Positions 1,700 through 64,000 of a DNA stretch of 64,000 nucleotides are shown one piece after another. Made by a program: the position numbers and the translations under genes. The stretch is from a virus: positions 19,588-83,587 of the IMG/VR virus record IMGVR_UViG_3300025162_000040; one strand, 5' to 3'. How positions within the stretch are numbered: position 1 is the stretch's first letter; the number at the start of each line of letters is the position of its first letter. The notes beneath the pieces are model-generated. The model was given only the letters and a program-made list of their open reading frames with translations, did not search any database and was not told the DNA's origin.

Positions 1700-2121
1700 G
1701 CCAAGTCGTTGATCCATATTGCGATGTAAATAGGTGCATCGAACGCCTCCGTAACGAGTTCAAAAAGTACGGTAACCTTGTTATCGGGTTCGACTTCGAT
1801 GAAACGATCTTTGACTACCACCACCAGGGACACTGCTACACCGCTGTTATGGAGCTGCTCCGCCGATGCAGTAAACTTGGGCTCACAATGTGCTTGTATA
1901 CTAACGAGTCTAATCCTGACAAGCTTAAGTTTAAGCAGGATTACTGTAGGTACTCGCTTGGGTTTATGCCAAGCTTCACCAATGAGAGTCCGCTGCTTAA
2001 AGACGGCGGAAAGCCATTTTTTAGCACCCTGCTTGACGACCGCGCCGGTCTCGGGCAGGCGTATATCGTACTGGAGGCTGTAGTGAACGAAATTGAAAAG
2101 GAAAGGATACAAGAAAAATGA
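1696..2121 (+). CDS. HAD-superfamily phosphatase-like protein
   Basis: The N-terminal motif GFDFDET at 31-37 is the HAD nucleophile motif DxD (Asp33, Asp35). CLYTNES near 66-72 fits motif II (Thr/Ser), and LLDDRAGL at 112-119 fits the acidic metal-binding motif IV (Asp114, Asp115). At 141 aa it is a minimal, cap-less HAD protein. It lies between prs and nadV with 4-nt overlaps on both sides, so a role in nucleotide or NAD precursor metabolism, such as removing a 5'-phosphate, is plausible. The substrate cannot be read from the sequence. Confidence 0.75.
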   Translation: MSQVVDPYCDVNRCIERLRNEFKKYGNLVIGFDFDETIFDYHHQGHCYTAVMELLRRCSKLGLTMCLYTNESNPDKLKFKQDYCRYSLGFMPSFTNESPLLKDGGKPFFSTLLDDRAGLGQAYIVLEAVVNEIEKERIQEK

Positions 2122-4141: not shown

Positions 4142-4401
4142 TGAGACCCGTATTCAGGGCGGCGTCGTTTGAGGAAGTAGCTAGGAGGCCAAAACCCCCT
4201 GAAACTACTTTCGAGTTTGCCGTTGCTGAGTTACGGCGAAGGATGGTAGAAGTCTTGGGAATATCCGCCGAGTATTTTGGAGTGGATTGTGCCGTAACAA
4301 ATGGCGAACGCAATATAAATGTGTTTGTAAAGCCGGTTTGTCCAGCAGAGTTTATTACAATAACGTGCCAAGTGGCACCAACAACAAACAAGGGGGAATA
4401 A
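4141..4401 (+). CDS. FKAA-motif protein (short)
   Basis: Starts with GTG at 4141 overlapping the previous stop (taGTG). The product is about 86 aa and opens directly with the shared peptide as VFRAASFEEVARRPKPPE at residues 4-21. The same PRPKPP-type tail follows the motif in the gene at 37056 (EEVARRPKPPD), which argues that the two are related. No other domain is recognised in the remaining ~65 residues. It is an outlying member of the family concentrated at 57-64 kb. The start is inferred from the overlap and the position of the motif. Confidence 0.65.
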   Translation: MRPVFRAASFEEVARRPKPPETTFEFAVAELRRRMVEVLGISAEYFGVDCAVTNGERNINVFVKPVCPAEFITITCQVAPTTNKGE

Positions 4402-36733: not shown

Positions 36734-37063
36734 ATGAAAAAGATTGTAAACCTTACTTCAGGGGAGATAGAGGATATGAAGGATCGCGCCTATCGCAGGG
36801 ACCAGGATAAGCGGGTAATAACGAAGCGTTTAAAATTGGTTAAACAACGCGACAATAAGCTCAGAGACAGCTCGGGTAAGACCTACTACGAGCAGATAGC
36901 GGCAGAGCCCGGAAGACTGCGTAAGCATCATCCTTACGACTGCGGAAATCCGCGATGCGGGCTCTGCCACTCTGAAAAACTGTCAGGTAAGCCTAAGATA
37001 GTGGACGTAAAACAGGCAATGCACGGAGAGCTGGACGAAGAGGACTACCTTGATGATGAGTGA
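36734..37063 (+). CDS. Conserved phage protein with HxxxDCGxPxCxxCH motif
   Basis: 109 aa, basic helical N-terminus, then RLRKHHPYDCGNPRCGLCHS, a probable zinc site (Cys/His) repeatedly seen in phage hypothetical proteins. Acidic end (GELDEEDYLDDE). It starts directly at the previous stop and overlaps the FKAA gene. Function unknown. Confidence 0.7.
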   Translation: MKKIVNLTSGEIEDMKDRAYRRDQDKRVITKRLKLVKQRDNKLRDSSGKTYYEQIAAEPGRLRKHHPYDCGNPRCGLCHSEKLSGKPKIVDVKQAMHGELDEEDYLDDE

Positions 37064-37694
37064 TGGTGCTGAGCCGGTGTTTAAAGCAGCTAGCCCTGAG
37101 GAAGTGGCACGTAGGCCAAAGCCTCCCGATCCGTATCTGGGCGTTAAGACTAGCGAGGAGTGGGACGCTATCCACGCGGAATGGAAAAGGAAGCACCCTA
37201 TTCTCGCGTGGCTTAAGACTAATGTCTACTATCCGTCCTGTAGGTTCTGGCGTTGGTTTAGTGACGTTCCTTTCCAGATCAAGTACTTCATCCAACGTGG
37301 CATCAGGGGATGGTCGAACCAGGATGCTTGGGGGGCTTACTACCACATATCGTCCGTGACGCTCGGGATGCTCAAGTGGCTAAAGATCAACAAGCATGGT
37401 GTTCCATGCGGATGCATAAATGACGCGGAGCCGTTTGAAGTCGGCCAGAAGCGTTGGGACGATATCATGGACAAGATGATCTACTCATTCCAGTGTCTTG
37501 TCGATGCCGAGAATGGTAAGTCTGAATTTTGGACGCCCCATCCAGATGCTCCAGAGGTCCACTTGCTTGAGTATGGGGATAATCCGTGGTCGCAGAAGTA
37601 TCCGGAGGTCCACTTGATGAACAAGGAAGAGGACGACAAGTACAACGAAGGGATGCAGCTATTTATAAAATATTACCAAAGTCTTTGGGACTAA
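37056..37694 (+). CDS. FKAA-motif protein with conserved phage domain
   Basis: 212-214 aa, depending on which of the ATG codons at 37053 and 37056 is used. Residues ~5-22 carry the shared peptide as PVFKAASPEEVARRPKPPD. The rest (EEWDAIHAEWKRKHPILAWL, then KYFIQRGIRGWSNQDAWGAY and GMLKWLKINKHGVP) resembles a phage family that occurs elsewhere without this leader, so the peptide appears to have been added to a pre-existing protein. It overlaps the previous gene and lies just before groES. Confidence 0.75.
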   Translation: MSDGAEPVFKAASPEEVARRPKPPDPYLGVKTSEEWDAIHAEWKRKHPILAWLKTNVYYPSCRFWRWFSDVPFQIKYFIQRGIRGWSNQDAWGAYYHISSVTLGMLKWLKINKHGVPCGCINDAEPFEVGQKRWDDIMDKMIYSFQCLVDAENGKSEFWTPHPDAPEVHLLEYGDNPWSQKYPEVHLMNKEEDDKYNEGMQLFIKYYQSLWD

Positions 37695-38197: not shown

Positions 38198-39862
<1,665 letters not shown>

Positions 39863-45816: not shown

Positions 45817-47745
45817 ATGAGACAGATGACTGACAAGATAATTACTGACGGGTTCTTAGCCAAATACAAAGACAAGACCCCGCCATTTGGGTTTAATGGT
45901 CTTGGATATGTTGTATACAAAAGGACATATAGTCGTATTAATCCGGACGGAAGTAACGAGGAGTGGTATGAGACCGTTGCACGTTGTATCAACGGGGCTC
46001 AGGAGATCGGTGCTGGCTATACAAAAGATGAGGCGGAACGGCTATTTGATCACATGTTTAATCTTAGATGTAATATGGCCGGCCGAATGCTTTGGCAACT
46101 TGGGACTTCCGGTATAAAGAGGTACGGAGGCAACGGCCTTTTGAATTGCTGGTTTGTGCAGATGAACGAGCCAGAGGACTTCTGTTTTTTGTTTGAGAAT
46201 TTGATGCTTGGCGGAGGAGTTGGGTTTTCTGTAAGCCGCGAAGATGTTTATGAGCTTCCTAAGGTTCAGGAAGGGGTAAAGATTACTCATTTAAACACAA
46301 AGGACGCCGACTTCATTGTACCGGATAGTCGCGAGGGATGGGTAGCGTTGTTGCGTCGCTTGCTCAAGTCTTTCTTTGTAACGGGACGTTCCTTTAGCTA
46401 CTCAACCATAATCGTTCGCGGGTACGGAGAGAAGATTCAGGGCTTCGGAGGCACTGCGTCAGGACCGGGTATTCTTGTTGAGGGGATAGCAAACATAACG
46501 AAGACACTTCAGTCGAGGGAGGGTAAAAAGCTCCGGTCGATCGATGTGCTCGATGTGTGTAACATCATTGGGAGCATCGTTGTATCCGGGAACATTCGTA
46601 GATCCGCTCAGATCGCATTGGGCGACCCGGATGATTACCTCTTTATCCGTGCAAAGAGGTGGGACTTGGGGCACATCCCTAACTGGAGAGCTCTTTCCAA
46701 CAATACCATCTTTGCTGATGACTACACTCATATCACAAACGACGTGTGGGAAGGGTACCACGGTAATGGGGAGCCCTACGGGCTCTTTAATGTGAAGCTC
46801 GCTCAGAGGATCGGGCGCGTGGGTGAGCATCGCAAGGACAACTGCCAGGGGGTCAACCCATGTGCTGAGATTGCACTGGCTGACAAGGAGTGCTGCAACC
46901 TGTCTGAGTTGTATCTAAATAATGTCCAGTCTAAAGAGGAACTGATTGACTGCGCAAAGCTTCTATACAAGGCGCAGAAAGCGGTCTGCAACCTTAACTT
47001 TATCCATGAGGAGACAAATAAGATCGTCCATAAGAACATGCGTATTGGAGTTGGGTGCACGGGCATCTGCCAGTCATTTCACAAGCTCGAGTGGCTAAAT
47101 GAAGCATACAAGGCTCTTCGAGTGTTTGACAAGGAGTGGAGTAAGAAGCAGGGGTATAACGAGAGCATTAAGCTCACTACAGTTAAGCCTAGCGGCACTT
47201 TGAGCCTTCTCGCAGGAGCTACTCCCGGTATTCACCCGGCCTATAGCAGGTATTACATTAGGCGCGTACGCATGTCCTCAGATGATAAGTTGATCGATGT
47301 GTGCAAGAAGCGAGGATACAAGGTTGACTACGTATCGAACTTTGATGGGACAGTTGATCACGCGACTATGGTAGTTGAGTTTCCATGCTTTGCCGGGAAT
47401 GACGTTATGCTCGCAAAGGACATGACAGCCATCAAGCAGCTGGATCTCGTAAAGCAGATGCAGACCGTGTGGGCCGATAATGCTGTAAGTGTCACGGTGT
47501 ACTACAAGAAAGAGGAGATCCCGGAAATAAAGAAGTGGCTTAAGGAGCATTACAAAGAGAACATTAAGAGCGTCAGTTTCTTATTGCACAGCGAGCATGG
47601 GTTTGATCAGGCGCCTTACGAAGAGATAACGGAAGACAGGTATAAGGAGCTTATTGCCGGGCTCAAGGATATAACAAAGACAAATATCGGTACTGAGGAC
47701 TTGAACGTGGAAGAATGCTCAAAGGGAGTTTGCCCAATCAAATGA
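45817..47745 (+). CDS. nrdJ: Adenosylcobalamin-dependent (class II) ribonucleotide reductase
   Basis: 642 aa. Reduces ribonucleotides with a thiyl radical generated from coenzyme B12, so no second subunit is needed. Seen: NCWFV with Cys111, NPCAE with the thiyl Cys349 and Glu351, a following Cys pair (KECCNLSE), GTLSLLAGATPGIHP, and a C-terminal redox pair Cys634/Cys639 (ECSKGVCPIK). The monomeric form resembles the Lactobacillus type. Class II enzymes work with or without oxygen. The start may be ATG 45817 or 45826. Confidence 0.92.
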   Translation: MRQMTDKIITDGFLAKYKDKTPPFGFNGLGYVVYKRTYSRINPDGSNEEWYETVARCINGAQEIGAGYTKDEAERLFDHMFNLRCNMAGRMLWQLGTSGIKRYGGNGLLNCWFVQMNEPEDFCFLFENLMLGGGVGFSVSREDVYELPKVQEGVKITHLNTKDADFIVPDSREGWVALLRRLLKSFFVTGRSFSYSTIIVRGYGEKIQGFGGTASGPGILVEGIANITKTLQSREGKKLRSIDVLDVCNIIGSIVVSGNIRRSAQIALGDPDDYLFIRAKRWDLGHIPNWRALSNNTIFADDYTHITNDVWEGYHGNGEPYGLFNVKLAQRIGRVGEHRKDNCQGVNPCAEIALADKECCNLSELYLNNVQSKEELIDCAKLLYKAQKAVCNLNFIHEETNKIVHKNMRIGVGCTGICQSFHKLEWLNEAYKALRVFDKEWSKKQGYNESIKLTTVKPSGTLSLLAGATPGIHPAYSRYYIRRVRMSSDDKLIDVCKKRGYKVDYVSNFDGTVDHATMVVEFPCFAGNDVMLAKDMTAIKQLDLVKQMQTVWADNAVSVTVYYKKEEIPEIKKWLKEHYKENIKSVSFLLHSEHGFDQAPYEEITEDRYKELIAGLKDITKTNIGTEDLNVEECSKGVCPIK

Positions 47746-50914: not shown

Positions 50915-53900
50915 ATGGATATCCTAAAGTTTCTACGCCAAAAGTTAGTTCCTGAACGCACCCCAGTCACCCCGCCAGAAGTAAAGAAAGTAGCAACCTC
51001 CAAAGAAGACGCGGATATGTGGAAGGCGTATGGGATATCCAACGAAGCTCTCCGCCAGGTCATCTCAGACCAAAACCTCATCATCTACGAACGCAGCTGC
51101 CTTCGTGGGGACACTAGAATTTCCCTCCTAGACGGAACTACTCCAACAATCAAAGAGATGGCTGAGAACAACCAAGACTATGTTGGGAAGTACGTTCTTT
51201 CAGTTAATCCAACCACGCTTGAAATCGAGCCAGATAAGATATTAGCCGCAACAAAAACTCGCCTAAATGCAGAGATGATTCGCGTTCATCTAGACAATGA
51301 GAATCACATTGACTGCACACCAGACCATAAGTTTATGCTTAGGAATGGGACCTTTAAGGAAGCAAAGGACTTGGCTCAAGGGGAAAGTTTGATGCCTTTG
51401 TACCTAAAGAAACCAGCAAAAGTTTTAAAAGATTATTTAATGGTTTACAAGCCGAAGGGTGGGTGGACATACGTTCATTGGCTAGTTGATAAGTTTTTCA
51501 ACGGCAAACGCCCTAAGGGAGTGATAGTGCACCACAAGGGAGACGATCGGTGCAAATATGATAAGGTAAACAATGACCCATCTTGTCTGGAAAGGATGTC
51601 AAAGTCCGACCACAACAAGATACATTTTAACGAAGTAAGTCACAAGGAGCATTTACAGAAACTTCATAGGAAGATGGTCAAGCCCAGAGAAACCAGAGAA
51701 TGTTTGGGCGGATGCGGTCTTACAAAGACAGTTATTGTTACAAGCGACTGGAGGGTGTGCAGAGACTGTGCTAACAAACTAAACGCACAGAAGCCATTTT
51801 GGCTGCAAAAACGTAAAGATGCACAACAGGCTTTATGGAACAGTCCAGAATACAGGGAACAGCAAACAAAGGCTATTTGGAATATCAAAAGATATCGTAG
51901 ACCCCTCCTGACTAAAACGTGTGTTGTGTGCGGATGTGAATTTACGACCAAAGTGGGGAATCGCCAGTCGTGCAGTAAGCGCGATTGTGTAATAGAGCTT
52001 ATCAGACGAAAAACTACTGGGGTTAAGAAAACCAAGTCGCTCAAAAACCACAAAGTTTTATTTGTTGAGACGCTTACTGTTCGTGAAGATGTTTACGATA
52101 TTTCAACAGAACGTAACCACAATTTTCCAACGGTTGCCGGAGTATTTGTTCACAACTCGGTTTACCAGGTAGTCGATCGCTCACTTAACCACGCCCTCAT
52201 GTGCTTCACAGGTGACACCAAGGTCGCCCTGCTTGACGGCAGGGATGTGTCAATGGAGCAGTTGGCTAAAGAGTATGAACAGGGTAAAGTAAACCATGTT
52301 TATTCGATAGACCTAGACGGTAAGAAGATCGTTCGTAGCCCGATTAAACGAGCTTGGAAGACTGGGACTAAGGAGATCTTGAAGGTTGTCTTGGACAACG
52401 GCGAAGAGATCCGCTGCACACTAGACCATAGGTTCATGCTTAGGGACGGATCATACAAGGAAGCCCAGCAGCTTAAGCCAGATGACTCCCTTATGCCTCT
52501 ATACCGGTATGTGGATAAGGAGTACCGCAAGGGGTATTGGCGGCTCTACGACCCATTTAACGCACGCCAGGCAGAGCCAAAGCACTATAGCGTCCAGTAC
52601 ACATACTTCAACAAGAACCGCGGTACAGGTAATCATGTCCACCACTCTTACACAAATTTCAAAGACTCCGCATTAAATAAACTAGATGACTCTCCGGAGA
52701 ACCACTCCATCCTCTCCAAAAAAGACCACAGTGCAGTTCACACGAAGCCACAGGAAGCCAGGTTCGCCCAGGCTATTCGTACCATTCAGAACCATTATGG
52801 GGTTAGCCGCGAAGAAGCCATTAGGATCTATGAGTTCAATCACAAGAAAGTTCCTTGCCCTGTATGCACGGATCTGATGGATCCACGTCGTAAGACGTGT
52901 TCGTATGAGTGTAGGAACTCCGCAATGAGAGGCAGGGCTCCTCACAATAAGGGTAAGATCGGGCAGACGGCTTGGAACAAAGGGCTGACAAAAGAAGACA
53001 TTAGAGTTGCTAAGTATGCGACTAAGCCGCGTTGGAACGTCGGGCTCACAAAAGAGACAGACGAGCGCGTCATGCATATGGCGGAGTCTAAGGTTGGTGG
53101 GACACCGTGGAATAAGGGGATTAGGAATCACAAGGTAAAAGAAGTTGTAAGGCTAAACGCTGTGGCAGACGTCTATGATCTAACAATAGAGCCATTCCAC
53201 AATTTTGCTTTGTCCGCCGGAGTGTTTGTTCACAATAGCGCGGCGTGTGTCGCATTTGCAGACACAGCTTGTCAGCGCTCCCCACTACACGGTTCAACTG
53301 TGTGGGTAACTTCTGACAATAAAGAATATCGCTACCAGCTGGAGAAGATGCTGGACGTGATCAACATCGAGGAAGTCATATACGATTGGGCCTGGACTAC
53401 AGCAGCTTTCGGTGATCTCTTTGTAGAGTGTTTTGGAGAACCAGGCGTAGGACTCATATGCGTCAACGATGATAACCATCCAATCAACGTCAGCAGGGTA
53501 GATCACAACGGAAGATTAGTGGGGTTTTTCCAGACTCCACTCGGCTACGCAACTACAGACACCCGTAAGTTACTAGCACCGTGGGACCATGTACACTTCA
53601 GACTCTTAGGAGCCAAGAAGCGGAGGCCACTATACGCCGATCAACAATATTGTATAGCTGGAAATACACGAATAAATCTTCTAGATAATACAACCCCAAC
53701 CATAAAAGAAATCACAGAGAACCTCGCTTTCTATAAAGGAAAATCTGTACTAACAATCAATCCGCAGACCCTTAATCTTGAGGTTGGGCAAATTGTAGAT
53801 GCAAAGAAAACCCGCCTAGATGCTCAACTGGTACGTGTTCATCTTGATAATGAACAACATATTGACTGCACACCAGATCATAAGTTTATGCTTAGGGATG

Positions 53901-56900
53901 GTAGCTACAAGGAAGCGCAGGATCTTTTCCAGGGAGAGAGCCTAATGCCGTTGTATACTCGAGAAGATTCCAGAAAGAGATTTAAGGATTACCAGCAGGT
54001 ATATAACCCAGCAGATGGAGAATGGCATTTTATTCATAGGCTGGTTGCCAAGCAAACATATGGTAAGACTCCAAAAGGCAGTATTGTCCACCACTGGGGG
54101 GATGAACGAAAGTTGTTTGATAAGAAGAATAATGATCCCAAGTGTTTAGAGGTTGTTACTAAGGCTAAGCACATGGAGATACATGCAAATAACTTAGATG
54201 AGCTTAGGCAGGATCCCGAATGGAAAGAGGCCCATAGAAAGTCAGTTAAGGATGGGGTCGCACGAAGTAAAGCTGAGAATCCTGAGCTGTGGGATGAGCA
54301 CGGCAAGAAAATTAGTCAGAAAGCGGTAGAACGATTTGAAGACCCTGCTTATAGAGATAAGTTTAACCGGGCTATGGAAGAGCGAAATGAAAATACTGAG
54401 TGGAAAAGAAACATTGGAGAAGGCTCGAAGAAGGTTTGGAGCGATAAAGAGTATCACGATAAGCAGGCAAAAAGGACGAAAGAAGGTCAACAAAAAGCAT
54501 ACTCAGACCCAGCATTTAGACACCATTGTACAAACCTAATAAAAGAAGCTGTAAATGAGATAAAAGAACTAACCTGCAAATATTGTGGAAAGAAATGGGT
54601 AGGAAAATATCCAGGATTAGCAGGGCATGCCAAGGGATGCAAGGTGAGCCCCAAGAATTTAGAGAAGGCCGCTGTTCTAAACCACAAGGTAGTCATAGTT
54701 GAGTGGCTAACTGAAAGAGAGGATACTTACGATATAGAAATTTCAGGCAACCACAATTTTCCAGTAACAGCGGGTGTGTTTATTTCCAACAGCGAGTTCA
54801 GGACGGTGAGTATAATGACCCCAGATGCACGCCGATTAACCTCCAAGTACGGCACAAGCATCCTCGCAGACGCCCTCCCAATTTGGAAACGCCTTAGGCT
54901 CGCAGAAGACTCTATCATGATGGCGCGAATTATGAAAAGTCCTCAACGCTTCCTCTTCAAAGTGACGATCCCAGAAGATAATGCAAACGCGGAAGCTGTA
55001 GCTAACCTGGTAGACCAGTACATGACTGAGATCAAACGTTGCTTGGTTGGTGACACCAAAATAGCTTTGTTGAACAATACTAATCCTACAATTAAGGAAA
55101 TGGCTGAAAATAAGGAGAAGTATGTTGGAAAATACGTATACAGTGTTAATCCAATAACGAAGGCTATTGAGCCTGACAAGATTGTAGATGTCGCTAAGAC
55201 AGTTGTTGATGCTACTGTTATGAGAGTTCATTTAGACAATGAAGAGTATGTCGAATGCACTCCAGACCACAGGTTTATGATGAGGGACGGGAGCTTCAAA
55301 GAAGCCAAGGACTTGGTTCAGGGTGATAGCCTGATGCCATTGTATACTAAGGTAAGCAGCGAAGGCAGACGGCAGGTTCTTAACCCCAAGACTGGAAAAT
55401 TCCCGTTGGTGTATAAGCTTGTTTCGGAATGTATAGACGGGAAAACTCCTAAAGATTGTGTAGTTCACCACGAAAACGAAAACAAGCTGGACGATGACCC
55501 GTCTAATCTGAAGATTGTTACCAAGCATGACCACATGTCTATTCATCACTTATTCACGGATAAGATTATTGCTAAGCGAGGGTCTATACAAGCGTGGAAT
55601 AAAGGATTGACTAAAGAAACCGATGAAAGAGTTGCAAAGTATGCTAAAAGTGTTTCGGAGACCCAACAGGTACAATATGACTTAGGTTTTAGAAAAAGTT
55701 GGAATGACGGATTAACTAAAGAAACTGACCGTCGAATGCAAGTAATATCGGATAAAGTTAAACAGAGTAATCCGATGGGTCGCCCCGAGGTTCGTGCCAA
55801 AGCGTCTAAGTCAAAGATGGGTAACCACAATAAACCAGTAGCACCTAAAGAGACTCGGGTTTGTGGGTGCGGTTGTGGTGAAACATTCGAATGTAAGATA
55901 AGTTCAGATCAAGCGTATGTTCAATACCATCACAGGAAGAATAAGAAAAATAGTCAGGATCATAATCGTAAGATTGCATTATCACATATTGGAAAGCCCG
56001 GGCATAAACAAACATTTGAATCGAGGAAGAAAATAAGTTTGGGCGGAAAAATTAGTTGGGCTAAGCGGAAACACACAGTTCTCAACCATAAAGTAATAAG
56101 TGTAGAAGTTCTGCCGTATACAGTTGATACGTATGATATTTCTACAGAGAAGAACCACAACTTTGCATTGAGTTGTGGTATTTTTGTCCATAACTCTAGA
56201 GCACTCAATCTCGACTCCAACAACCCAGGCTACTTGGATCGCTTCAACGCTATGGCAAGTTGTGAGGATTTGATATTCCCGGTATGGGGAGACAGCAACA
56301 ACCTCACGGTAGAGACCCTAGGTGGAGATACGGATATTAAGTGGATCGCTGACGTAGATAAACTTGAGAATCAGTTGATTACCGCTCTAAAAGTCCCAAA
56401 GCAGCTCCTCGCGGGATTCTCAGGTGAAGGCGGTGGGGGCTTCGAAGGCGGTACAGCCTTAGAGCGTATGGACATCCGGTTCGCCAGACAAGCACGTAGA
56501 GTACAGAGAAGTTTGATCAACGGGCTCACCAGGATGGCACAGATACACCTTGCTTGGCAAGGCCTCGATCCTGACCTAGACCTTTTCCAGATCCACATGT
56601 CGCAATCTTCCAGTGCAGAAGAGGTAGAGCTCCAGGACGCACTAGGGAAGTCTGTGGATGCCACCCGCGGTTTGTACGACATGCTTCAGGATATGGTTGG
56701 AGTAGACCTCAACAAGAAAGAGCTCCTTACGTACTTCAATGAGAAGTTCTTTAAGCTGTCAGACCTTGACTTAGACACCTTGTACCTGAAGGGTGATGCT
56801 AAGGCCATACAGGGAGACCATAGAGATGTTCCTGTACCTGGTGTAGAAGAGCCAGCAGCTGAAGGTGGAGAAGAGGAGCAAGAGGCAACCAACCCATTTA

Positions 56901-57034
56901 GAGAAAGTAAGGAGTCGCTACGAATCAGTGACTTGAGCTCGCCCCTTCCAAACCACAAGACAGGACAGTTGTGGGAGAGCCAGTGGAAGGATGCTCCCAT
57001 TAACGTTACCTCCCTGAACGAAGGGACAAAGTAG
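50915..57034 (+). CDS. Portal protein interrupted by four inteins
   Basis: The 2039-residue frame contains four inteins (residues 62-414, 430-774, 913-1292, 1376-1760). Removing them leaves 576 residues, the usual size for a tailed-phage portal. The host sequence has portal traits: LEKMLDVINIEEVIYDWAWT, KYGTSILADALPIWKRLRLA, SPQRFLFKVTIPEDNANAEA, LITALKVPKQLLAGFSGEG and an acidic Pro-rich C-terminus. It is the ring through which DNA enters the capsid, here upstream of the FKAA genes. The portal assignment is by motif and by its place downstream of terminase. Confidence 0.87.
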   Translation: MDILKFLRQKLVPERTPVTPPEVKKVATSKEDADMWKAYGISNEALRQVISDQNLIIYERSCLRGDTRISLLDGTTPTIKEMAENNQDYVGKYVLSVNPTTLEIEPDKILAATKTRLNAEMIRVHLDNENHIDCTPDHKFMLRNGTFKEAKDLAQGESLMPLYLKKPAKVLKDYLMVYKPKGGWTYVHWLVDKFFNGKRPKGVIVHHKGDDRCKYDKVNNDPSCLERMSKSDHNKIHFNEVSHKEHLQKLHRKMVKPRETRECLGGCGLTKTVIVTSDWRVCRDCANKLNAQKPFWLQKRKDAQQALWNSPEYREQQTKAIWNIKRYRRPLLTKTCVVCGCEFTTKVGNRQSCSKRDCVIELIRRKTTGVKKTKSLKNHKVLFVETLTVREDVYDISTERNHNFPTVAGVFVHNSVYQVVDRSLNHALMCFTGDTKVALLDGRDVSMEQLAKEYEQGKVNHVYSIDLDGKKIVRSPIKRAWKTGTKEILKVVLDNGEEIRCTLDHRFMLRDGSYKEAQQLKPDDSLMPLYRYVDKEYRKGYWRLYDPFNARQAEPKHYSVQYTYFNKNRGTGNHVHHSYTNFKDSALNKLDDSPENHSILSKKDHSAVHTKPQEARFAQAIRTIQNHYGVSREEAIRIYEFNHKKVPCPVCTDLMDPRRKTCSYECRNSAMRGRAPHNKGKIGQTAWNKGLTKEDIRVAKYATKPRWNVGLTKETDERVMHMAESKVGGTPWNKGIRNHKVKEVVRLNAVADVYDLTIEPFHNFALSAGVFVHNSAACVAFADTACQRSPLHGSTVWVTSDNKEYRYQLEKMLDVINIEEVIYDWAWTTAAFGDLFVECFGEPGVGLICVNDDNHPINVSRVDHNGRLVGFFQTPLGYATTDTRKLLAPWDHVHFRLLGAKKRRPLYADQQYCIAGNTRINLLDNTTPTIKEITENLAFYKGKSVLTINPQTLNLEVGQIVDAKKTRLDAQLVRVHLDNEQHIDCTPDHKFMLRDGSYKEAQDLFQGESLMPLYTREDSRKRFKDYQQVYNPADGEWHFIHRLVAKQTYGKTPKGSIVHHWGDERKLFDKKNNDPKCLEVVTKAKHMEIHANNLDELRQDPEWKEAHRKSVKDGVARSKAENPELWDEHGKKISQKAVERFEDPAYRDKFNRAMEERNENTEWKRNIGEGSKKVWSDKEYHDKQAKRTKEGQQKAYSDPAFRHHCTNLIKEAVNEIKELTCKYCGKKWVGKYPGLAGHAKGCKVSPKNLEKAAVLNHKVVIVEWLTEREDTYDIEISGNHNFPVTAGVFISNSEFRTVSIMTPDARRLTSKYGTSILADALPIWKRLRLAEDSIMMARIMKSPQRFLFKVTIPEDNANAEAVANLVDQYMTEIKRCLVGDTKIALLNNTNPTIKEMAENKEKYVGKYVYSVNPITKAIEPDKIVDVAKTVVDATVMRVHLDNEEYVECTPDHRFMMRDGSFKEAKDLVQGDSLMPLYTKVSSEGRRQVLNPKTGKFPLVYKLVSECIDGKTPKDCVVHHENENKLDDDPSNLKIVTKHDHMSIHHLFTDKIIAKRGSIQAWNKGLTKETDERVAKYAKSVSETQQVQYDLGFRKSWNDGLTKETDRRMQVISDKVKQSNPMGRPEVRAKASKSKMGNHNKPVAPKETRVCGCGCGETFECKISSDQAYVQYHHRKNKKNSQDHNRKIALSHIGKPGHKQTFESRKKISLGGKISWAKRKHTVLNHKVISVEVLPYTVDTYDISTEKNHNFALSCGIFVHNSRALNLDSNNPGYLDRFNAMASCEDLIFPVWGDSNNLTVETLGGDTDIKWIADVDKLENQLITALKVPKQLLAGFSGEGGGGFEGGTALERMDIRFARQARRVQRSLINGLTRMAQIHLAWQGLDPDLDLFQIHMSQSSSAEEVELQDALGKSVDATRGLYDMLQDMVGVDLNKKELLTYFNEKFFKLSDLDLDTLYLKGDAKAIQGDHRDVPVPGVEEPAAEGGEEEQEATNPFRESKESLRISDLSSPLPNHKTGQLWESQWKDAPINVTSLNEGTK
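51098..52156 (+). mobile_element. Intein 1 (HNH type)
   Basis: 353 aa, starts Cys (CLRGDTRISLLDG) and ends VFVHN before Ser. Block B is CTPDHKFMLRNG (TPDH). The HNH-like region is VIVHHKGDDR through SKSDHNKIHF. A later zinc-type cluster (CVVCGCEFTTKVGNRQSC) may bind DNA. All residues for splicing (Cys1, His-Asn, +1 Ser) are present. Confidence 0.92.
52202..53236 (+). mobile_element. Intein 2 (HNH type with NUMOD3-like repeats)
   Basis: 345 aa, starts CFTGDTKVALLDG, ends VFVHN before Ser. Only 15 extein residues separate it from intein 1. Block B CTLDHRFMLRDG. The nuclease region has HVHHSYTNFK and SILSKKDHSAVH. NUMOD3-like repeats follow (TAWNKGLTKEDIRVAKYA, NVGLTKETDERVMHMA, TPWNKGIR). It is the most diverged of the four at its N-terminus. 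Confidence 0.9.
53651..54790 (+). mobile_element. Intein 3 (HNH type, penultimate Ser)
   Basis: 380 aa, starts CIAGNTRINLLDN, ends VFISN before Ser: the penultimate residue is Ser instead of His, which normally assists Asn cyclisation. Block B CTPDHKFMLRDG; nuclease region SIVHHWGDER and VTKAKHMEIH. Repeats of ENPELWDEHGKK type and a CKYCGKKW zinc-like cluster precede the C-terminal splicing block. Confidence 0.9.
55040..56194 (+). mobile_element. Intein 4 (HNH type with NUMOD3-like repeats)
   Basis: 385 aa, starts CLVGDTKIALLNN, ends IFVHN before Ser. Block B CTPDHRFMMRDG; nuclease region CVVHHENENK and VTKHDHMSIH. NUMOD3-like segments (QAWNKGLTKETDERVAKYAK, SWNDGLTKETDRRMQ) resemble those of intein 2, so repeats have been exchanged between elements. 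Confidence 0.9.
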
Positions 57035-57105
57035 TGTCCTGTATTCACGATTCCAAGAGGTGCGGCAGTTGCCCTAGGACAGACTGTCCGGATAGGGGGA
57101 AATAA
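57034..57105 (+). CDS. Tiny cysteine-rich ORF of 23 aa
   Basis: GTG start overlapping the portal stop. The product (HDSKRCGSCPRTDCPDRGK at its end) has Cys residues spaced as in small zinc sites. The ribosome binding site is weak; very small size. Tentative. Confidence 0.35.
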   Translation: MSCIHDSKRCGSCPRTDCPDRGK

Positions 57106-57263
57106 TGGCTGTAAGAGAGCTGACATTTGAAGTTACGAAGTACGACGACAAGAAGAACCCACTAGAGTGCAAGTTAACCGCTGTGGGAGATCATGCGGAT
57201 CTTCAGAAGGCGTTTAAGGAGCTTAGCCTTAACGTTATGAAAGCCAATGAGGACAAGAAGTAG
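57105..57263 (+). CDS. Small protein of 52 aa
   Basis: ATG after GGGGGAAATA, overlapping the previous stop by one base. Short beta strand then helix (ADLQKAFKELSLNVMKANED). Function unknown. The next gene follows with no gap. Confidence 0.55.
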   Translation: MAVRELTFEVTKYDDKKNPLECKLTAVGDHADLQKAFKELSLNVMKANEDKK

Positions 57264-58961
57264 ATGCCTAATCACGTAACGAACATACTCACCATAGAAG
57301 GCCCTACCAAGAGAGTAAAAGAGATCTTTGCTGCCATCTCTCCTGTGGACCCAACGCTTGCCAGTAAGCCACTTCCGGCTCGCAAGGCTGGTGTGGTATT
57401 TGCTGCGGCCTCTGAAGAAGAGGTGGCCCGCAGAAAAGTAGACATCCACGAGATTGACTTCGACAAGATCATCCCGGCTCCTAAGACGAAGGCATATAGG
57501 AACCAGGGATGGTACAACTGGAACATTGAGCATTGGGACACTAAGTGGAATGCCTACAGCCAAGAGAAGGTAGATGACCATACGATGCGGTTTGATACTG
57601 CTTGGGGGGCTCCTTACGCTATCTTTAGAGCACTTAGCGAGAAGTTCCCGGATGTCACTATCAAAGTTAGGTATGCTGACGAGGACTTTGGCCAGAACTG
57701 CGGGGAGCTCGAGTATCGTGGAGGCAGTGAGACCTACAACGCTGGCATAGAGGAAGGAAGCAAGGAAGCCTATGAGCTAGCGTTTGATGTTAAGGGGTAT
57801 GGCGCGGATGAGTATGTATACGACGAGAAGAAGGGTACTTATGTCTACAGAGACAACGCTGAAGATAATGAGCCTGTCCACAACGAGTCAGTTAAGAACG
57901 TAGGCAGGATGACTGCGGACCTAAAGAGTATCTTTGAGGCTGATCATGTGTTCAAAGCGGCTAGCGCTGAGGATGTGGCCAAGCGCAGGGAAGATCTGGA
58001 CCGGAAGACGGGGGAAGTAAGCAAGTCTTTCTACGACGCTGAGTACAAGAGGAACGTGGACGTTTTACTATACAAGCGCCGGTCGGACTGGTCAGACTCA
58101 GATGCTCCTAAGTGGACAGTTGAGTTCGACAATGGCTACCACGGCGGGTATTACGTAAGCACAATCTTTGGGAAGGATGAGAGGATTGGACATTACCGCA
58201 GGGTGGGCTGTCGCGGGGTGGGTCTAGTACTGCACGGTGGGGATGAGAACAGGTCAGCAATAGGCGCACAGTGCATGGATACGATCATGGACTGGATCGC
58301 GGCTACGATACATGCTCGCGGCGAGAAGATCGAAGAGGCGGGTGTGATGCCTAACGCAGGGGATGAGAATCTGATCAGCCACGAGACTCTTAGCGGAACG
58401 GACTACAAGCATCAGTCAGTCAACAAGCCAGTATTTAAGGCTGCTAACCAGGAAGAGCTTGCAAGGCGTGGGATCAAGCAGCCTAAGTTCCAAAATGGTC
58501 AGCGGGTTGTCTACCACACTTCAATACGCGGCATTGATGATTACTTGGATGGGCGCATTGGAACGATAGCGATGTATCGCCCTGTTGAAGACTCAACAGG
58601 CGGGGTGCTTTACCGTTACGAAGTTAAGTTCGTGCACCCATTTATTTTCTTTAGGTGGACTACTGAGGATTACCTGACTCCTGTGACGAATGAAGCGGCT
58701 GAGGAAGTGTTCAAAGCAGCAAGTCCAGAAGATGTAGCTAAGCGTCCTGAGTCAAAGATTCAGGTTGGGGACACAGCAATGTACATGGGCGGAAATCCAT
58801 CAAGCAAGTACTACCGCAGGTTTTGCAAAGTTACTGACATGCGCACAAATACTTACGGGACTAACTGGGTAGTGCACGATGTCAGGGCCGACATCAAGTT
58901 CCAGGATGGTAAGGGACTTAGGAATGTGGATGTTGATCACTTGGAGAAGATTTTTCAATGA
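57264..58961 (+). CDS. Four-module FKAA protein with DUF1281/Api92-like start
   Basis: 565 aa with four copies of the shared peptide: VFAAASEEEVARR (45-57), VFKAASAEDVAKRR (229-242), VFKAANQEELARR (390-402) and VFKAASPEDVAKR (482-494). Copy 1 lies inside an Api92/DUF1281-like domain, between MPNHVTNILTIEGPTKRVKE and EIDFDKIIPAP, and NWNIEHWDTKWNAY follows. Copy 2 is preceded by MTADLKSIFEADH, which looks like the start of a separate gene of this family, so earlier genes appear to have fused. Modules after copies 3 and 4 are small beta barrels (FQNGQRVVYHTS; IQVGDTAMYMGG). Function unknown. Confidence 0.8.
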   Translation: MPNHVTNILTIEGPTKRVKEIFAAISPVDPTLASKPLPARKAGVVFAAASEEEVARRKVDIHEIDFDKIIPAPKTKAYRNQGWYNWNIEHWDTKWNAYSQEKVDDHTMRFDTAWGAPYAIFRALSEKFPDVTIKVRYADEDFGQNCGELEYRGGSETYNAGIEEGSKEAYELAFDVKGYGADEYVYDEKKGTYVYRDNAEDNEPVHNESVKNVGRMTADLKSIFEADHVFKAASAEDVAKRREDLDRKTGEVSKSFYDAEYKRNVDVLLYKRRSDWSDSDAPKWTVEFDNGYHGGYYVSTIFGKDERIGHYRRVGCRGVGLVLHGGDENRSAIGAQCMDTIMDWIAATIHARGEKIEEAGVMPNAGDENLISHETLSGTDYKHQSVNKPVFKAANQEELARRGIKQPKFQNGQRVVYHTSIRGIDDYLDGRIGTIAMYRPVEDSTGGVLYRYEVKFVHPFIFFRWTTEDYLTPVTNEAAEEVFKAASPEDVAKRPESKIQVGDTAMYMGGNPSSKYYRRFCKVTDMRTNTYGTNWVVHDVRADIKFQDGKGLRNVDVDHLEKIFQ

Positions 58962-59311
58962 GCCTGGAAAAAGACATTACATCACTCAAGAAGATCATGG
59001 AAGCTGACAACGTCTTCAAGGCTGCTGGTGGTGATGAACTAACCAGGCGCATGGGACCTATAGCCGCTGAGAAGAAGGCCGCTATTGCCGAGGGCAAGGT
59101 ATGGTGCAATGACTGCATGAAGGTTCCTAGAGCGCTTATGGTTGAGTTTGGTATAGCTAATCAGAAGGTACGGCTTAAAGACGATGGCAAGTCCATCGCT
59201 AGCTTGGGAGAGGTGAACGTTCAGGAGCCTAACTACATTGTCTGCGTTGACTGCTACCAGGGTAATTTAGTGAATGAGAAGCAAATAATAGACAAGCTGA
59301 ATGATTGGTGA
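58958..59311 (+). CDS. FKAA leader protein with zinc-ribbon domain
   Basis: 117 aa. Leader MSLEKDITSLKKIMEA, then NVFKAAGGDELTRR. The body (AEGKVWCNDCMKVPRALMVE, later VCVDCYQGNL) is a C4 zinc ribbon and is paralogous to the gene at 60822 (AEGKVWCNVCEAVP). The ATG overlaps the previous stop by 4 nt. Confidence 0.75.
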   Translation: MSLEKDITSLKKIMEADNVFKAAGGDELTRRMGPIAAEKKAAIAEGKVWCNDCMKVPRALMVEFGIANQKVRLKDDGKSIASLGEVNVQEPNYIVCVDCYQGNLVNEKQIIDKLNDW

Positions 59312-59314
59312 TTG

Positions 59315-60403
59315 ATGAGCTTAGAAAACGACGTTACTCAGGTGATGGCTCAGCTGCATGAAGGGTATGCAGACGCTAAACGTACGTTTGTTGACTTGGG
59401 GAAGATTGCTGAGGATGCATTTGAGCAGCTTTCTGAGAAAGATCCGACCAGTCAGAAGAAGTACCTTGTGTGGATGTGCAGGCAATACATTACCACACCC
59501 GAGTTAGGAAAGTTCGATATTATCCGGCAGTTCCACGACTTGGCTTTTCGGGGGATTATTAAGAATAGCGATATATATTCTTATAAAAGCATCCAAGATG
59601 TGGAGAAAGCAGTGGAGGATTCCCAAGGTATATTTACCGGATCTTCTCTTAGGAAAGGGTCTAAAGAGATTGGTAAGATCCCAGCAGATATTGTGAGACT
59701 TGACAATGACAAGGTTGTGATTATTGAACCCCGTGATAAGAACGAAGCTATTTACTATGGAAGAGGGTCTAAGTGGTGCACGGCCGCTATGGGAAGAGGC
59801 AATCTGTTTAGTAACTACCATACTGCAAACAAGAGGCTCTATTACATTTTAGCTAAGAATCCTACTAATGAGGAATCAGACAAGTTTGCGGTATCCTACA
59901 GGTTGCTTTCACCTCGCGTGTTTGGGCACGAGGATCCATCTAGCACGCCTAGGTATGAATGGATATTATGGACAAAGGAAGACCGTGGCTATTACCGCAA
60001 TGACAGGGGGGTAGATACCATCCTTAGTCAACTAGGGTTGTCTGCTAGTGATTTAGCTGGGATGTTTGATAAGTATGCTCCAAAAGAGTTCACAATAGGT
60101 GAAGCCAGTGTAGTGTATGACTCGCCTAAGATAAAAATCTACTACATAGATGATGTGGATACTGCGATCGAGCTCGGTAAGGGTACTGAATGGTTTGTGG
60201 CCGCTCCTTCCGATAATCAATTTGGTAATTACTACGGAATGAGCGGATACAACATATATTACTGGTTTTCAAAGATTGATGATCATAAATACTTGATGCT
60301 TCAGCCGCCTGCTGATGGTGGCAGTAAGGTGACACTGTGGGACGAACGAATGATTCCCGCTAATTTTAAAAAGATGGCGGCTAAATATGGAGTTCCTGCA
60401 TGA
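59315..60403 (+). CDS. Protein with two GKGTxW-type domains, no FKAA peptide
   Basis: 362 aa. The leader-like MSLENDVTQVMAQLHEG is present but the FKAA peptide is absent. Two copies of a domain occur: EAIYYGRGSKWCTAAMGRGN with LYYILAKN, and TAIELGKGTEWFVAAPSDNQ with YNIYYWFSK. A third copy lies in the next gene. The pattern has been seen in other phage hypothetical proteins; its function is unknown. ATG 59315 is preferred over TTG 59312. Confidence 0.7.
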   Translation: MSLENDVTQVMAQLHEGYADAKRTFVDLGKIAEDAFEQLSEKDPTSQKKYLVWMCRQYITTPELGKFDIIRQFHDLAFRGIIKNSDIYSYKSIQDVEKAVEDSQGIFTGSSLRKGSKEIGKIPADIVRLDNDKVVIIEPRDKNEAIYYGRGSKWCTAAMGRGNLFSNYHTANKRLYYILAKNPTNEESDKFAVSYRLLSPRVFGHEDPSSTPRYEWILWTKEDRGYYRNDRGVDTILSQLGLSASDLAGMFDKYAPKEFTIGEASVVYDSPKIKIYYIDDVDTAIELGKGTEWFVAAPSDNQFGNYYGMSGYNIYYWFSKIDDHKYLMLQPPADGGSKVTLWDERMIPANFKKMAAKYGVPA

Positions 60404-60825
60404 ATCTATACGAAGCAGTGACATCACTTAAGAAGATGTTTGAAGCGAACTGGGTGTTTAGAGCGGCCGACCCGGAAGAGGTTGTGGCGCGTCGGGAGAT
60501 CTACAAGTCCTGGGTCGTACTGGATACTGCTGATGTGAGGGTTGTTGAGCTTGAGTCTAAGGAACTTGCGATCGAGTACGGCAAGGGTACTAAGTGGGAA
60601 ATCTCAAGCCCTGACGCGTCAAGGAATACGTTCTCTAGATATTACGCACTTGGCTATTCATTTTACATTGTCTTTAACAAAAGATCAGGCAAGCGAATGG
60701 TAGTAAGTATTCCTCCTCCTGATGCCGATTCAACCGACATAGAGTATTACTCGGAAGATAACACTGTTATTCCTGAAGAGACGGCTAAGCAGGAGCTGAA
60801 AGAACTCGGAGCTATAGCATTATGA
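60400..60825 (+). CDS. FKAA leader protein with GKGTxW domain
   Basis: 141 aa. Leader MNLYEAVTSLKKMFEA, then WVFRAADPEEVVARR. The body contains ELAIEYGKGTKWEISSPDAS and YSFYIVFNKRSGKRMVV, a third copy of the domain doubled in the previous gene. It thus links the two families. Overlaps both neighbours by 4 nt. Confidence 0.75.
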   Translation: MNLYEAVTSLKKMFEANWVFRAADPEEVVARREIYKSWVVLDTADVRVVELESKELAIEYGKGTKWEISSPDASRNTFSRYYALGYSFYIVFNKRSGKRMVVSIPPPDADSTDIEYYSEDNTVIPEETAKQELKELGAIAL

Positions 60826-61160
60826 GCTTACACGAAGCAGTGACATCACTTAAGAGAATGTTTGAGGCAAGTCCAGTCTTCAAAGCTGCCGGGCCAGAGG
60901 ATATGGATAAGCGTAAGAGTGTGATGTCCTCAGCGAAGCAGAAGGCGTTAGCAGAAGGCAAGGTGTGGTGCAACGTCTGCGAGGCTGTTCCGACGTCTCT
61001 CTCGTGTACTTACGAATGGGCTACAGAAAACGCTAAGCTCAAGGACGGCAAGTTTGTTGACGGGTATTGTGGTGTCGACGAGACAGGCGATCGCAGTGCG
61101 ACCAGCTGCGGCGAGTGTTACGAGTATGACTTAGAAAACATGGATAAGGTTGTGTGGTGA
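60822..61160 (+). CDS. FKAA leader protein with zinc-ribbon domain
   Basis: 112 aa. Leader MSLHEAVTSLKRMFEA, then PVFKAAGPEDMDKR. The body AEGKVWCNVCEAVPTSLSCT and SCGECYEYDL is a zinc ribbon, paralogous to 58958-59311. Its leader is closer to that of 60400 than to 58958, so leaders and bodies have been reshuffled. Confidence 0.75.
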   Translation: MSLHEAVTSLKRMFEASPVFKAAGPEDMDKRKSVMSSAKQKALAEGKVWCNVCEAVPTSLSCTYEWATENAKLKDGKFVDGYCGVDETGDRSATSCGECYEYDLENMDKVVW

Positions 61161-61161
61161 T

Positions 61162-61437
61162 ATGAGCCTATCTAAAGATGTCTCAGAGATAAAGAAACTT
61201 GTTGAAGCTAAGCCTGTGTTCAAAGCAGCTAGTAGGGAAGAAGTGGCTAAGAGACCCAATCCCTTTAAGACGCACAGGTTTAAGTTTGATCTTTGGAATC
61301 TTGTGGATGTGAACGAGCTTAACGAACACCTTGATTCTTTAGTTGGGAATGAAATGCCGTCAGACATTACGTATAAGTTTTTAAGAATAACTCCGGATGG
61401 CGTTGTTACAGTCGATGCCACTTACGTTGCTGAATAA
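61162..61437 (+). CDS. FKAA leader protein, short
   Basis: 91 aa from ATG 61162. Leader MSLSKDVSEIKKLVEA, then PVFKAASREEVAKRPNP. The body (FKFDLWNLVDVNELNEHLDS, then ITYKFLRITPDGVVTVDATY) is a small alpha/beta domain without recognised motif. Confidence 0.7.
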   Translation: MSLSKDVSEIKKLVEAKPVFKAASREEVAKRPNPFKTHRFKFDLWNLVDVNELNEHLDSLVGNEMPSDITYKFLRITPDGVVTVDATYVAE

Positions 61438-61732: not shown

Positions 61733-62425
61733 ATGAATAACTACGGGTACATATATGAAACGATAAATAGTGCGACGGGGATGCTTTATGTCGGTAAGCA
61801 TAAGGGCGCTTTTGAGTCTTGGTATCACGGAGGGGGCACGCGTATAAACCGTGCAATTAAAAAATATGGTAAGAAAGCTTTTACAACAAGGCCAATTGCT
61901 TATGCAAGAACTAAGGATGAGCTTAACGAGCTTGAAGTAGAGCACATAGCCAAGTACAAAGCTACGTATGGGGCAGACAAGCTCTACAACATATCTGAGG
62001 GTGGCGACGGAGGCGGCGGCCTTACTCGTCACTCTAGTGATTGTGTGTGCTGTTTTTGCATGGGTAAGCGTGGAGAGTTGAGTGGGTCTAACTGTCCTAG
62101 GTATGGCAAAACGTATCGATATGTTCGTAACAAGGCTACTGGTGAAAGACGTATGATTGCTCCTGAGATGCTTAGTGAATACATTATTGCCGGCTGGGTT
62201 AGATGCTCTACTGGGAGTAGGGTTGGCAAGAATAATGGTATGTACGGTAGACGGCATACAGAGAAAGCTAGGAAGGGAATGAAGGAGAATCGGCCAGACC
62301 AGTCAGGCAAAAGCAATGGTATGTTTGGGGTTCACCGGTATGGAAGCGCCAATCCGATGTTTGGTAAGAGTGACTCAGCTAAACGTGGCTGGGAGACTAG
62401 AAGAAAGAACATGGTGACTAAATGA
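61733..62425 (+). CDS. GIY-YIG homing endonuclease
   Basis: 230 aa. The GIY-YIG module is YGYIYETINSATGMLYVGKH, with NRAIKKYGKKAF, ELNELEVEHIAKYKA (Glu) and NISEGGDGGGG. The C-terminal part has NUMOD3-like repeats (NNGMYGRRHTEKARKGM, SNGMFGVHRYGSANPMFG). Free-standing homing element, second of this type; it splits the FKAA gene run. Confidence 0.88.
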   Translation: MNNYGYIYETINSATGMLYVGKHKGAFESWYHGGGTRINRAIKKYGKKAFTTRPIAYARTKDELNELEVEHIAKYKATYGADKLYNISEGGDGGGGLTRHSSDCVCCFCMGKRGELSGSNCPRYGKTYRYVRNKATGERRMIAPEMLSEYIIAGWVRCSTGSRVGKNNGMYGRRHTEKARKGMKENRPDQSGKSNGMFGVHRYGSANPMFGKSDSAKRGWETRRKNMVTK

Positions 62426-62940
62426 GCCTGTCTAAAGACGCAGCAGAGATCAAGAAGATGGTGGAAGCTAAGCCTGTATTTAAGGCGGCTAGCCCTGAAG
62501 AAGCACAAGCACGTAGAAATGTGACGGCAACTCAGAGGCCTTGGGCTATTTCTAAGAGATCTCCAAAGATCATTGAGTCTGCAGATGGCAAGTATCGTAT
62601 TGCTAAGTTGTTTGGGGATGAGTACGACTCTGATGAAATGGAAGCGAACGGAAAGTTAATTGTAAATGCGGTTAATGCTTACAAAGCTAGTGTAACTGAA
62701 GCTAAGCCAGTTTTCAAGGCAGCTGACCAGGCGGAGCTAAATAAGCGCCGGGCGGCCCGCGGGACTAAGCTCTACCGTTTCATCTACAAGTGCTATGCAG
62801 TTATCGAAGCGGCAAGCCCGGAAGATGCCCAGAGCAGGTTTGAAGAGATCGACCTGTTTTCAGATGACATGCACAGCGCACAGGACGTGAAGATCTTCGA
62901 CGTGCTTGATTCAGGATACCCTGAGGAATACACATCGTGA
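62422..62940 (+). CDS. FKAA leader protein, two copies
   Basis: 172 aa. Leader MSLSKDAAEIKKMVEA, then PVFKAASPEEAQARR. A second copy in the middle (VTEAKPVFKAADQAELNKRR) precedes a domain with LYRFIYKCYAVIEAASPEDA. The phrase VIEAASPEDAQSRFEEIDLF may be a third, worn-down copy. This fits joining of two leader-bearing genes. Confidence 0.7.
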   Translation: MSLSKDAAEIKKMVEAKPVFKAASPEEAQARRNVTATQRPWAISKRSPKIIESADGKYRIAKLFGDEYDSDEMEANGKLIVNAVNAYKASVTEAKPVFKAADQAELNKRRAARGTKLYRFIYKCYAVIEAASPEDAQSRFEEIDLFSDDMHSAQDVKIFDVLDSGYPEEYTS

Positions 62941-63332
62941 GCTTAGAGAAGGACATTACACTTATCAAGAGCATGGTTGAGTCCGGTAATCCAGTCTTCA
63001 AGGCCGCTAGCCAAGAAGAGGTGGCTAAGAGGAGCCCTAAGGACTTTAAGATACGTATCGAGCCGGCTCCGGGGGAAGACTACAACATAATTACTGTAAG
63101 CAACTTTCGCTTGCCGCTTGGGAATAACTATAGATCAGACCACTTCTTTCGTGCTCTCATCGAAGAGTATCCGGAGATCATTGACGAGCTAAGGGCGTAC
63201 TCAGCCAATGACTCTGTTAGGTTCGACTATCGTGGAAGCTACGGGGCACACGAGGATAACTTTTCTATGTTAGACATATACGACTATGTGCGTGCTCACT
63301 ATGACGATGTTCGTGCTAACGAGGAGCTCTAA
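62937..63332 (+). CDS. FKAA leader protein
   Basis: 131 aa. GTG start overlapping the previous stop by 4 nt. Leader MSLEKDITLIKSMVES, then PVFKAASQEEVAKRSPK. The body (IRIEPAPGEDYNIITVSNFR, FFRALIEEYPEIIDELRAYS) is alpha/beta without recognised motif. Confidence 0.7.
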   Translation: MSLEKDITLIKSMVESGNPVFKAASQEEVAKRSPKDFKIRIEPAPGEDYNIITVSNFRLPLGNNYRSDHFFRALIEEYPEIIDELRAYSANDSVRFDYRGSYGAHEDNFSMLDIYDYVRAHYDDVRANEEL

Positions 63333-63931
63333 TGAAACCGGGACATGACGCGGTAGAACTTAAGAAGCTCTTCGAAGCTGGTCCAGTCTTTAAGGCAGCT
63401 GGCCCCAAGGACCTCAAGCAGCGCAAGAACGCGCTTGGCAAGCCGTGGCTGAGCATTCGTGTGGTGTTAGCTAATAACGAAGAGCAGGCTGTAGAGCAGG
63501 TGGTTGAAGGGAACTTCGAGGAGACTCACCCGCTGTGCGACGTGGTGCTTCCGGCCTCAGACGTTAAGGTGAACAACAAGTCAGGCAGCACCTGGGCGTG
63601 GACCCCGGTTGATCAGATGACCGAAGCTTCCAAGCCTATATTCAGAGCAGCCGGCCAAGAGGATATGTACAAGAGGGCGGCGGAGCTTAGGGCTAAGAGT
63701 CCAGCAATAACTCCTGAGAACAAAGCTTTAGCGCAACTCTACTGGAAGACTGTTACCGATATCGAGTACGAGCTTGCCCAGTTGAGAGAGCAGTACGGGT
63801 TAGACGATGAAGACAAGTGCGAGTGCGAGATCACGGACTCAATCTCTTTTCCAGATGATTACGGCAGCATCGCTAACTACTGCCTCAAGTGTGGTGGTGA
63901 TGCTGGCAGCCGGCCGGAGGTGGCTGAATGA
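63332..63931 (+). CDS. FKAA leader protein, two copies
   Basis: 199 aa. Leader MKPGHDAVELKKLFEA, then PVFKAAGPKDLKQRK; second copy MTEASKPIFRAAGQEDMYKR in the middle. The first body resembles the second body of the 62422 gene (SIRVVLANNEEQAVEQV; a strand-helix unit). The C-terminus has CECEITDS and CLKCGGDA, a split zinc site. Overlaps the next gene by 4 nt. Confidence 0.7.
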   Translation: MKPGHDAVELKKLFEAGPVFKAAGPKDLKQRKNALGKPWLSIRVVLANNEEQAVEQVVEGNFEETHPLCDVVLPASDVKVNNKSGSTWAWTPVDQMTEASKPIFRAAGQEDMYKRAAELRAKSPAITPENKALAQLYWKTVTDIEYELAQLREQYGLDDEDKCECEITDSISFPDDYGSIANYCLKCGGDAGSRPEVAE

Positions 63932-64000
63932 GCTACGAGCGGGATATTATTGCACTCACGGAAGACATTGAGAACGCTGTCTTCAAGGCCGCTAACGCTG
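63928..64000 (+). CDS. FKAA leader protein, cut by window end
   Basis: Only the first 24 residues are visible: leader MSYERDIIALTEDIEN and AVFKAANA. It shows the family continues beyond this window. Confidence 0.6.
   Translation, partial: MSYERDIIALTEDIENAVFKAANA

Follow-up and report, generated by a model that had tools for sequence, protein, structure and literature searches.

The FKAA peptide lodged in an Api92/DUF1281-like domain belongs to a repeated element that probably marks cut sites in the head proteins of a T4-like phage

Why does a short peptide that recurs in otherwise unrelated phage proteins also stand inside a folded domain? The question is raised by a gene in the window, i.e. 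the whole stretch of 64,000 nucleotides analysed here, which spans bases 19588-83587 of a virus record of 83.6 kb, up to the end of the contig. The gene follows the portal gene, from which a single small ORF separates it, and carries four copies of a peptide of 13-15 residues, called here the FKAA tag. The initial annotation placed the first copy in a loop of an Api92/DUF1281-like domain and was reminded of the coding palindromic elements of Rickettsia, although it noted that codon choice pointed to constraint on the protein.

The FKAA copy in the Api92/DUF1281-like domain

The features relevant to this copy are the following.
57264..58961, + strand: gene for a 565 aa protein with four FKAA tags; unit 1 is the Api92/DUF1281-like domain
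57339..57455 (approximate), + strand: insertion relative to 12 homologues, residues 26-64; limits uncertain by several residues
57393..57437, + strand: tag 1, VVFAAASEEEVARRK, residues 44-58, within 57366-57449
57543..57797, + strand: ferredoxin-like part of the domain, DUF1281_C, residues 94-178 (Pfam)

The domain assignment was borne out. The C-terminal part matches the Pfam family DUF1281_C (Api92-like) above the cut-off (residues 94-178, E 1.9e-16), the MPNHVTN...WGTKWNAY motifs of the family are present, and relatives found by tblastn extend through both flanks of the insertion, those in viral contigs reading MPNHVTN...DFNKIIP...WGTKWNAY. The second strand of the domain (DF[ND]KIIP and similar) begins at residue 65 in the 57264 protein as against residues 27-36 in 12 relatives, and pairwise alignment with one of them (L007) shows a single 29-residue gap where this strand begins. 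The insertion, 29-38 residues long and located between the first helix and the second strand, is therefore clean, as the initial annotation had supposed, with uncertain edges. That annotation had also asked whether homologues have an equally long loop at this place: the 12 relatives have a short turn only. Most relatives do contain a long variable loop, but it comes later, after the IIPMP strand, where the 57264 protein is short. Because of this later loop multi-sequence MAFFT alignments misplaced the insert, and the pairwise A4 alignment and residue positions were used instead. An AlphaFold2 model built from a two-row alignment was poor (mean pLDDT 48), with the lowest values in the insertion (28-35); this agrees with the exposed loop that had been suggested but falls short of proving it.

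Scored with a leave-one-out profile made from the other 37 copies, VVFAAASEEEVARRK reached 29.9 bits, whereas the best non-tag 15-mer scored 16.4 and the next 10.8 among the 316,304 15-mers of the background (six frames of both contigs, forward and reversed). The 16.4-bit sequence is probably itself a decayed tag. VVFAAASEEEVARRK is thus an authentic copy of the FKAA peptide and not a chance likeness. An unrelated loop merely resembling the tag, as the missing Lys and cut site might suggest, is very improbable in view of these scores.

This copy is atypical nevertheless. It is among the very few tags without a hydrophobic-x-E site (no upstream xE|A), and the only one of the 38 with Ala in place of the Lys or Arg after Phe; one other tag has Gln. 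Since both the cut site and the Lys are absent, the copy in the Api92-like domain is, judged from its sequence, probably an uncut loop. A cut at this place would divide the domain in two. Read most simply, this is an insertion that has retained the peptide and is not cut; the location of this copy within a folded domain is an exception among the tags. The third tag of the same gene gave a NUP50 match in Pfam with E 0.012, below the cut-off, and this identity was set aside. An Rfam scan of 57000-59000 returned no match.

Copies of the peptide, the leader and the upstream motif

The further tags and tagged or leader-bearing genes of the window are listed below; all are on the + strand.
57945..57989, + strand: tag 2 of the 57264 gene, HVFKAASAEDVAKRR, after an internal leader-like MTADLKSIFE|AD
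58428..58472, + strand: tag 3 of the 57264 gene, PVFKAANQEELARRG, no xE|A site
58704..58748, + strand: tag 4 of the 57264 gene, EVFKAASPEDVAKRP, after TNE|A
58958..59311, + strand: gene with leader (MSLEKDITSLKKIME|AD), tag NVFKAAGGDELTRRM at 59009 and a unit that looks zinc-ribbon-like by eye
59312..60403, + strand: gene with leader (MSLENDVTQVMAQLHEG), untagged
60400..60825, + strand: gene with leader and tag WVFRAADPEEVVARR at 60451
60822..61160, + strand: gene with leader and tag PVFKAAGPEDMDKRK at 60873; its unit is paralogous to that of the 58958 gene
61150..61437, + strand: gene with leader and tag PVFKAASREEVAKRP at 61213
62422..62940, + strand: gene with leader, tags at 62473 and 62707, and a decayed copy, AVIEAASPEDAQSRF, at 62797
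62937..63332, + strand: gene with leader and tag PVFKAASQEEVAKRS at 62991
63332..63931, + strand: gene with leader and tags at 63383 and 63635
63928..64000, + strand: first part of a gene for 643 aa with five tags, continued on contig G001; exact 73-base overlap
4147..4191, + strand: tag PVFRAASFEEVARRP, outside the head cluster, without leader
37074..37118, + strand: tag PVFKAASPEEVARRP, near the N-terminus of gene 37050-37694, without leader and cut site

Altogether, the window and the adjacent contig G001 contain 38 copies. Of the clear copies detected by the profile scan, 15 lie in the first contig and 23 in the second; every one is on the coding strand, and the reversed sequences of both contigs gave none. 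Phe, both Ala residues and Arg are invariant in all 38, and 36 have Lys or Arg after the Phe. Most tags sit after a leader at the start of the protein or between separate units, which points to an element used in processing and addressing head proteins. Among the polyprotein-like genes, that of 643 aa has five tags, that of 953 aa six and that of 532 aa three; the units that follow the tags are 66-277 residues long. A stand-alone gene in the related genome G005 is similar to unit 3 of the 953-aa protein and another, in G006, to a 203-aa tagged protein; a polyprotein of G002 contains two of the units, beside different neighbours.

The motif [ILVMF]xE[ASG] stands just upstream of 30 of the 38 tags, compared with 5.1% of background windows in the same proteins (p 6.5e-32); the rule that counts a site within about 10 residues upstream was set after the pattern had been seen. 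In 22 tags the distance from Glu to Phe is exactly 5 residues. Although the motif is also found elsewhere by chance, the fixed spacing and the size of the effect make a chance coupling unlikely. The residue at P3 is mostly L, V, I or M, slightly broader than in the T4 motif.

Nineteen genes match the leader pattern MSLEKDIT..., most of them with a Glu at about residue 15, and most tagged genes between the portal and the protease gene begin with such a leader of about 15 residues. In T4 a short propeptide at the N-terminus, about 10-20 residues long, forms the capsid targeting sequence (CTS); the cut by gp21 falls after L/I-x-E, and gp22 is cut at a Glu-Ala bond (PMC9026906, PMC7411985). Here, too, a short common N-terminal leader is found on otherwise unrelated proteins and ends in a gp21-type site ([LI]xE|). 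Several leader genes have no tag, and the two genes outside the head cluster have the tag with neither leader nor site. These leaders without peptide and peptides without leader or site indicate that cutting is probably not all that the peptide serves.

The phage, its head module and its relatives

G001 (66.8 kb) opens with the last 73 bases of the window and continues its open gene. The evidence that the two contigs belong to one phage is strong but, because the overlap is short, not proof. The phage is an uncultured, T4-like phage; among cultured phages no close relative was found, all being below 60% identity. Its portal gene (50915..57034, + strand, upstream of the tagged cluster) encodes 2039 aa with, by eye, four intein-like blocks, and with matches to HNH endonucleases; the portal of G008 is likewise oversized (L147:3224-8659, 1811 aa). 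Elsewhere in the window are genes for a NAMPT-like enzyme (2118-3584), a single-chain SbcD/SbcC-like protein (29187-32132), GroEL (38234-39862) and ribonucleotide reductase (45817-47745).

G001 encodes a head maturation protease (PHROG; gene at L038:3581-5695) whose putative triad H76/S140/D172 is invariant in 7 relatives. Its structural model has a pLDDT of 82, and T4 gp21 chains were the only significant fold matches in the PDB, where phmmer had given nothing useful. A cognate gp21-fold protease with its catalytic triad is thus encoded in the same genome, as in T4. G001 also has a gp23-type capsid protein (Gp23 match) with a conserved N-terminal ALLE|[SG]G; no relatives of it were confirmed in genome contigs. 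Just after the capsid gene lies an HNH-like gene (L038:7285-8049) with a leader-like N-terminus of its own, MSFEMDVTVVKELMEK. The order portal - tagged genes - protease - major capsid protein is found in G000/G001 and in G006.

Variants of the tag occur in two related genomes. In G002 it reads DIFKGAS, with most copies after xNE or IKE, and in G006 DIFKPPTEEEL, with ten N-terminal copies, mostly after LLE. Most tagged G006 genes are paralogues; a stretch of leucine-rich-looking paralogues (L073:9550-17840) mostly carries this tag. Scanning DNA for the patterns FKPP/FKPA brought up mostly unrelated matches; G006 alone had multiple copies. In G004, G005 and G008 the head module is present and no recognised tag was found. 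The tag is therefore patchy and diverging within this phage group. A tblastn search of cultured phages with the 33-aa leader plus tag gave no match, nor did searches with the polyproteins and single units. The VFKAASxEEV pattern had 15 single matches in bacterial genome contigs, which were taken as chance on the estimate that about 8 would arise by chance.

What the peptide may do

Because the tag usually stands just after a predicted protease site, it is probably a mark of the positions at which long head proteins are cleaved into separate packaged proteins. We infer, with a probability of about 70%, that the leader is a packaging signal, the E|A bond the cut site of the prohead protease, and the FKAA peptide the new N-terminus of each unit. 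The sequence itself shows the repeat, its spacing, the leader, the protease, the synteny and the insertion; packaging, cleavage and the labelling role are inferred. New chains would begin with the leader, about 15 residues reading MSLEKDITxIKKMVE, which would direct them to the prohead core, as the CTS does in T4; next would come the cut by the gp21-type protease after [ILVM]xE, giving units that begin A-x-x-P-V-F-K-A-A-[SG]-x-E-E-V-x-x-R. As site and peptide are repeated between the units of the polyprotein-like genes, as many as six or seven small packaged proteins would come from a single chain. Once the cut is made, the peptide may label the N-terminus, so that the protein is retained in the head or delivered to the host.

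The most serious competitor, though rather unlikely, is that the peptide is a docking motif for one partner shared by the tagged proteins, be it scaffold, portal, DNA or a host factor, that multi-tag proteins stay whole, and that every tag is an additional binding site. It would account for the invariant F, A, A and R, which lie on the side not required for cutting, for tags without a cut site, including those of the two genes outside the head cluster, and for leaders without a tag, but it makes a coincidence both of the tight link, at fixed spacing, between tag and [ILVMF]xE|A and of the gp21-type protease that the phage encodes. Docking and cut marking may also both be true together. A papain-family (Peptidase_C1) gene lies among the tagged head genes (L037:13816-14676), and a similar-looking gene occurs in G004 (L050:128-892). 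Phe at P2 and Lys or Arg at P1 suit papain-family enzymes, whereas Pro after the scissile bond disfavours their cutting. The tag could accordingly be the substrate of the phage C1 protease (Peptidase_C1 match, E 2.9e-13), cut at F-[KR]|A-A. We consider this improbable: the G006 variant reads FK|PP, so that the bond is not suitable in all tag variants, G004 has the papain-like gene (by eye) yet no tag, and the upstream xE|A would be left unexplained.

The many copies in unrelated proteins and the clean insertion in the Api92-like domain could also suggest a mobile coding element that inserts in frame, the likeness to Rickettsia drawn by the initial annotation. This reading is largely refuted. 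No inverted repeat or palindromic DNA was found in 57000-59400, the position after the leader is fixed, and the copies are not related at the DNA level: the best pairwise DNA identity is 80%, and at the conserved positions (the invariant F, A, A and R) the same codon is used about as often as, or less often than, genome codon usage predicts, so the tags were not recently multiplied as DNA. The protein-level constraint noted in the same annotation is upheld.

A bolder form of the preferred reading, in which the leader directs packaging and the protease cuts at E|A, is tentative and in our view somewhat less probable than its opposite: internal head proteins would be made as polyproteins and cut into dozens of small proteins sharing one N-terminal peptide, a post-cut address recognised in the capsid, during ejection or in the host. 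Its least certain step is the peptide perhaps being an address; we found no description of such an N-terminal address signal of phages in the literature. If true, multi-domain genes would give rise to head proteins that are packaged separately and share one recurring peptide, comparable to the polyproteins of animal viruses. There would also be a sequence rule for spotting candidate injected phage proteins, otherwise too diverse to find, in metagenomes, and a new short signal with a partner to look for.

Several known systems share parts of this arrangement. Api92/DUF1281-like proteins have the same domain without the insertion of 29-38 residues. The Rickettsia palindromic elements likewise place a peptide in frame in unrelated proteins; here, in contrast, there is no palindrome, the DNA likeness comes only from protein constraint, and the position is fixed. 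In phage P1 the N-terminal 30 residues of DarB suffice for packaging, and no N-terminal consensus or tag is reported for the Dar proteins (PMC9024508). In phiKZ and SPN3US a gp21 relative (gp175 and gp245, respectively) cuts many head proteins after x-x-E, and the ejection proteins have several sites each (PMC5694885, PMC10052503); propeptides are removed there and, as far as the excerpts of these papers go, no repeated peptide at mature N-termini is described, unlike here. A further parallel is T4, which has a gp21-fold protease, a gp23-type capsid protein and diverse small head proteins alike only in their leader, with internal proteins (IPI-III, Alt) whose short N-terminal leader is cut after [hydrophobic]-x-E (PMC9026906, PMC3012670). 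What distinguishes the present phage from T4 is the additional conserved peptide after the cut site, in about 38 copies, many of them inside long multi-unit chains.
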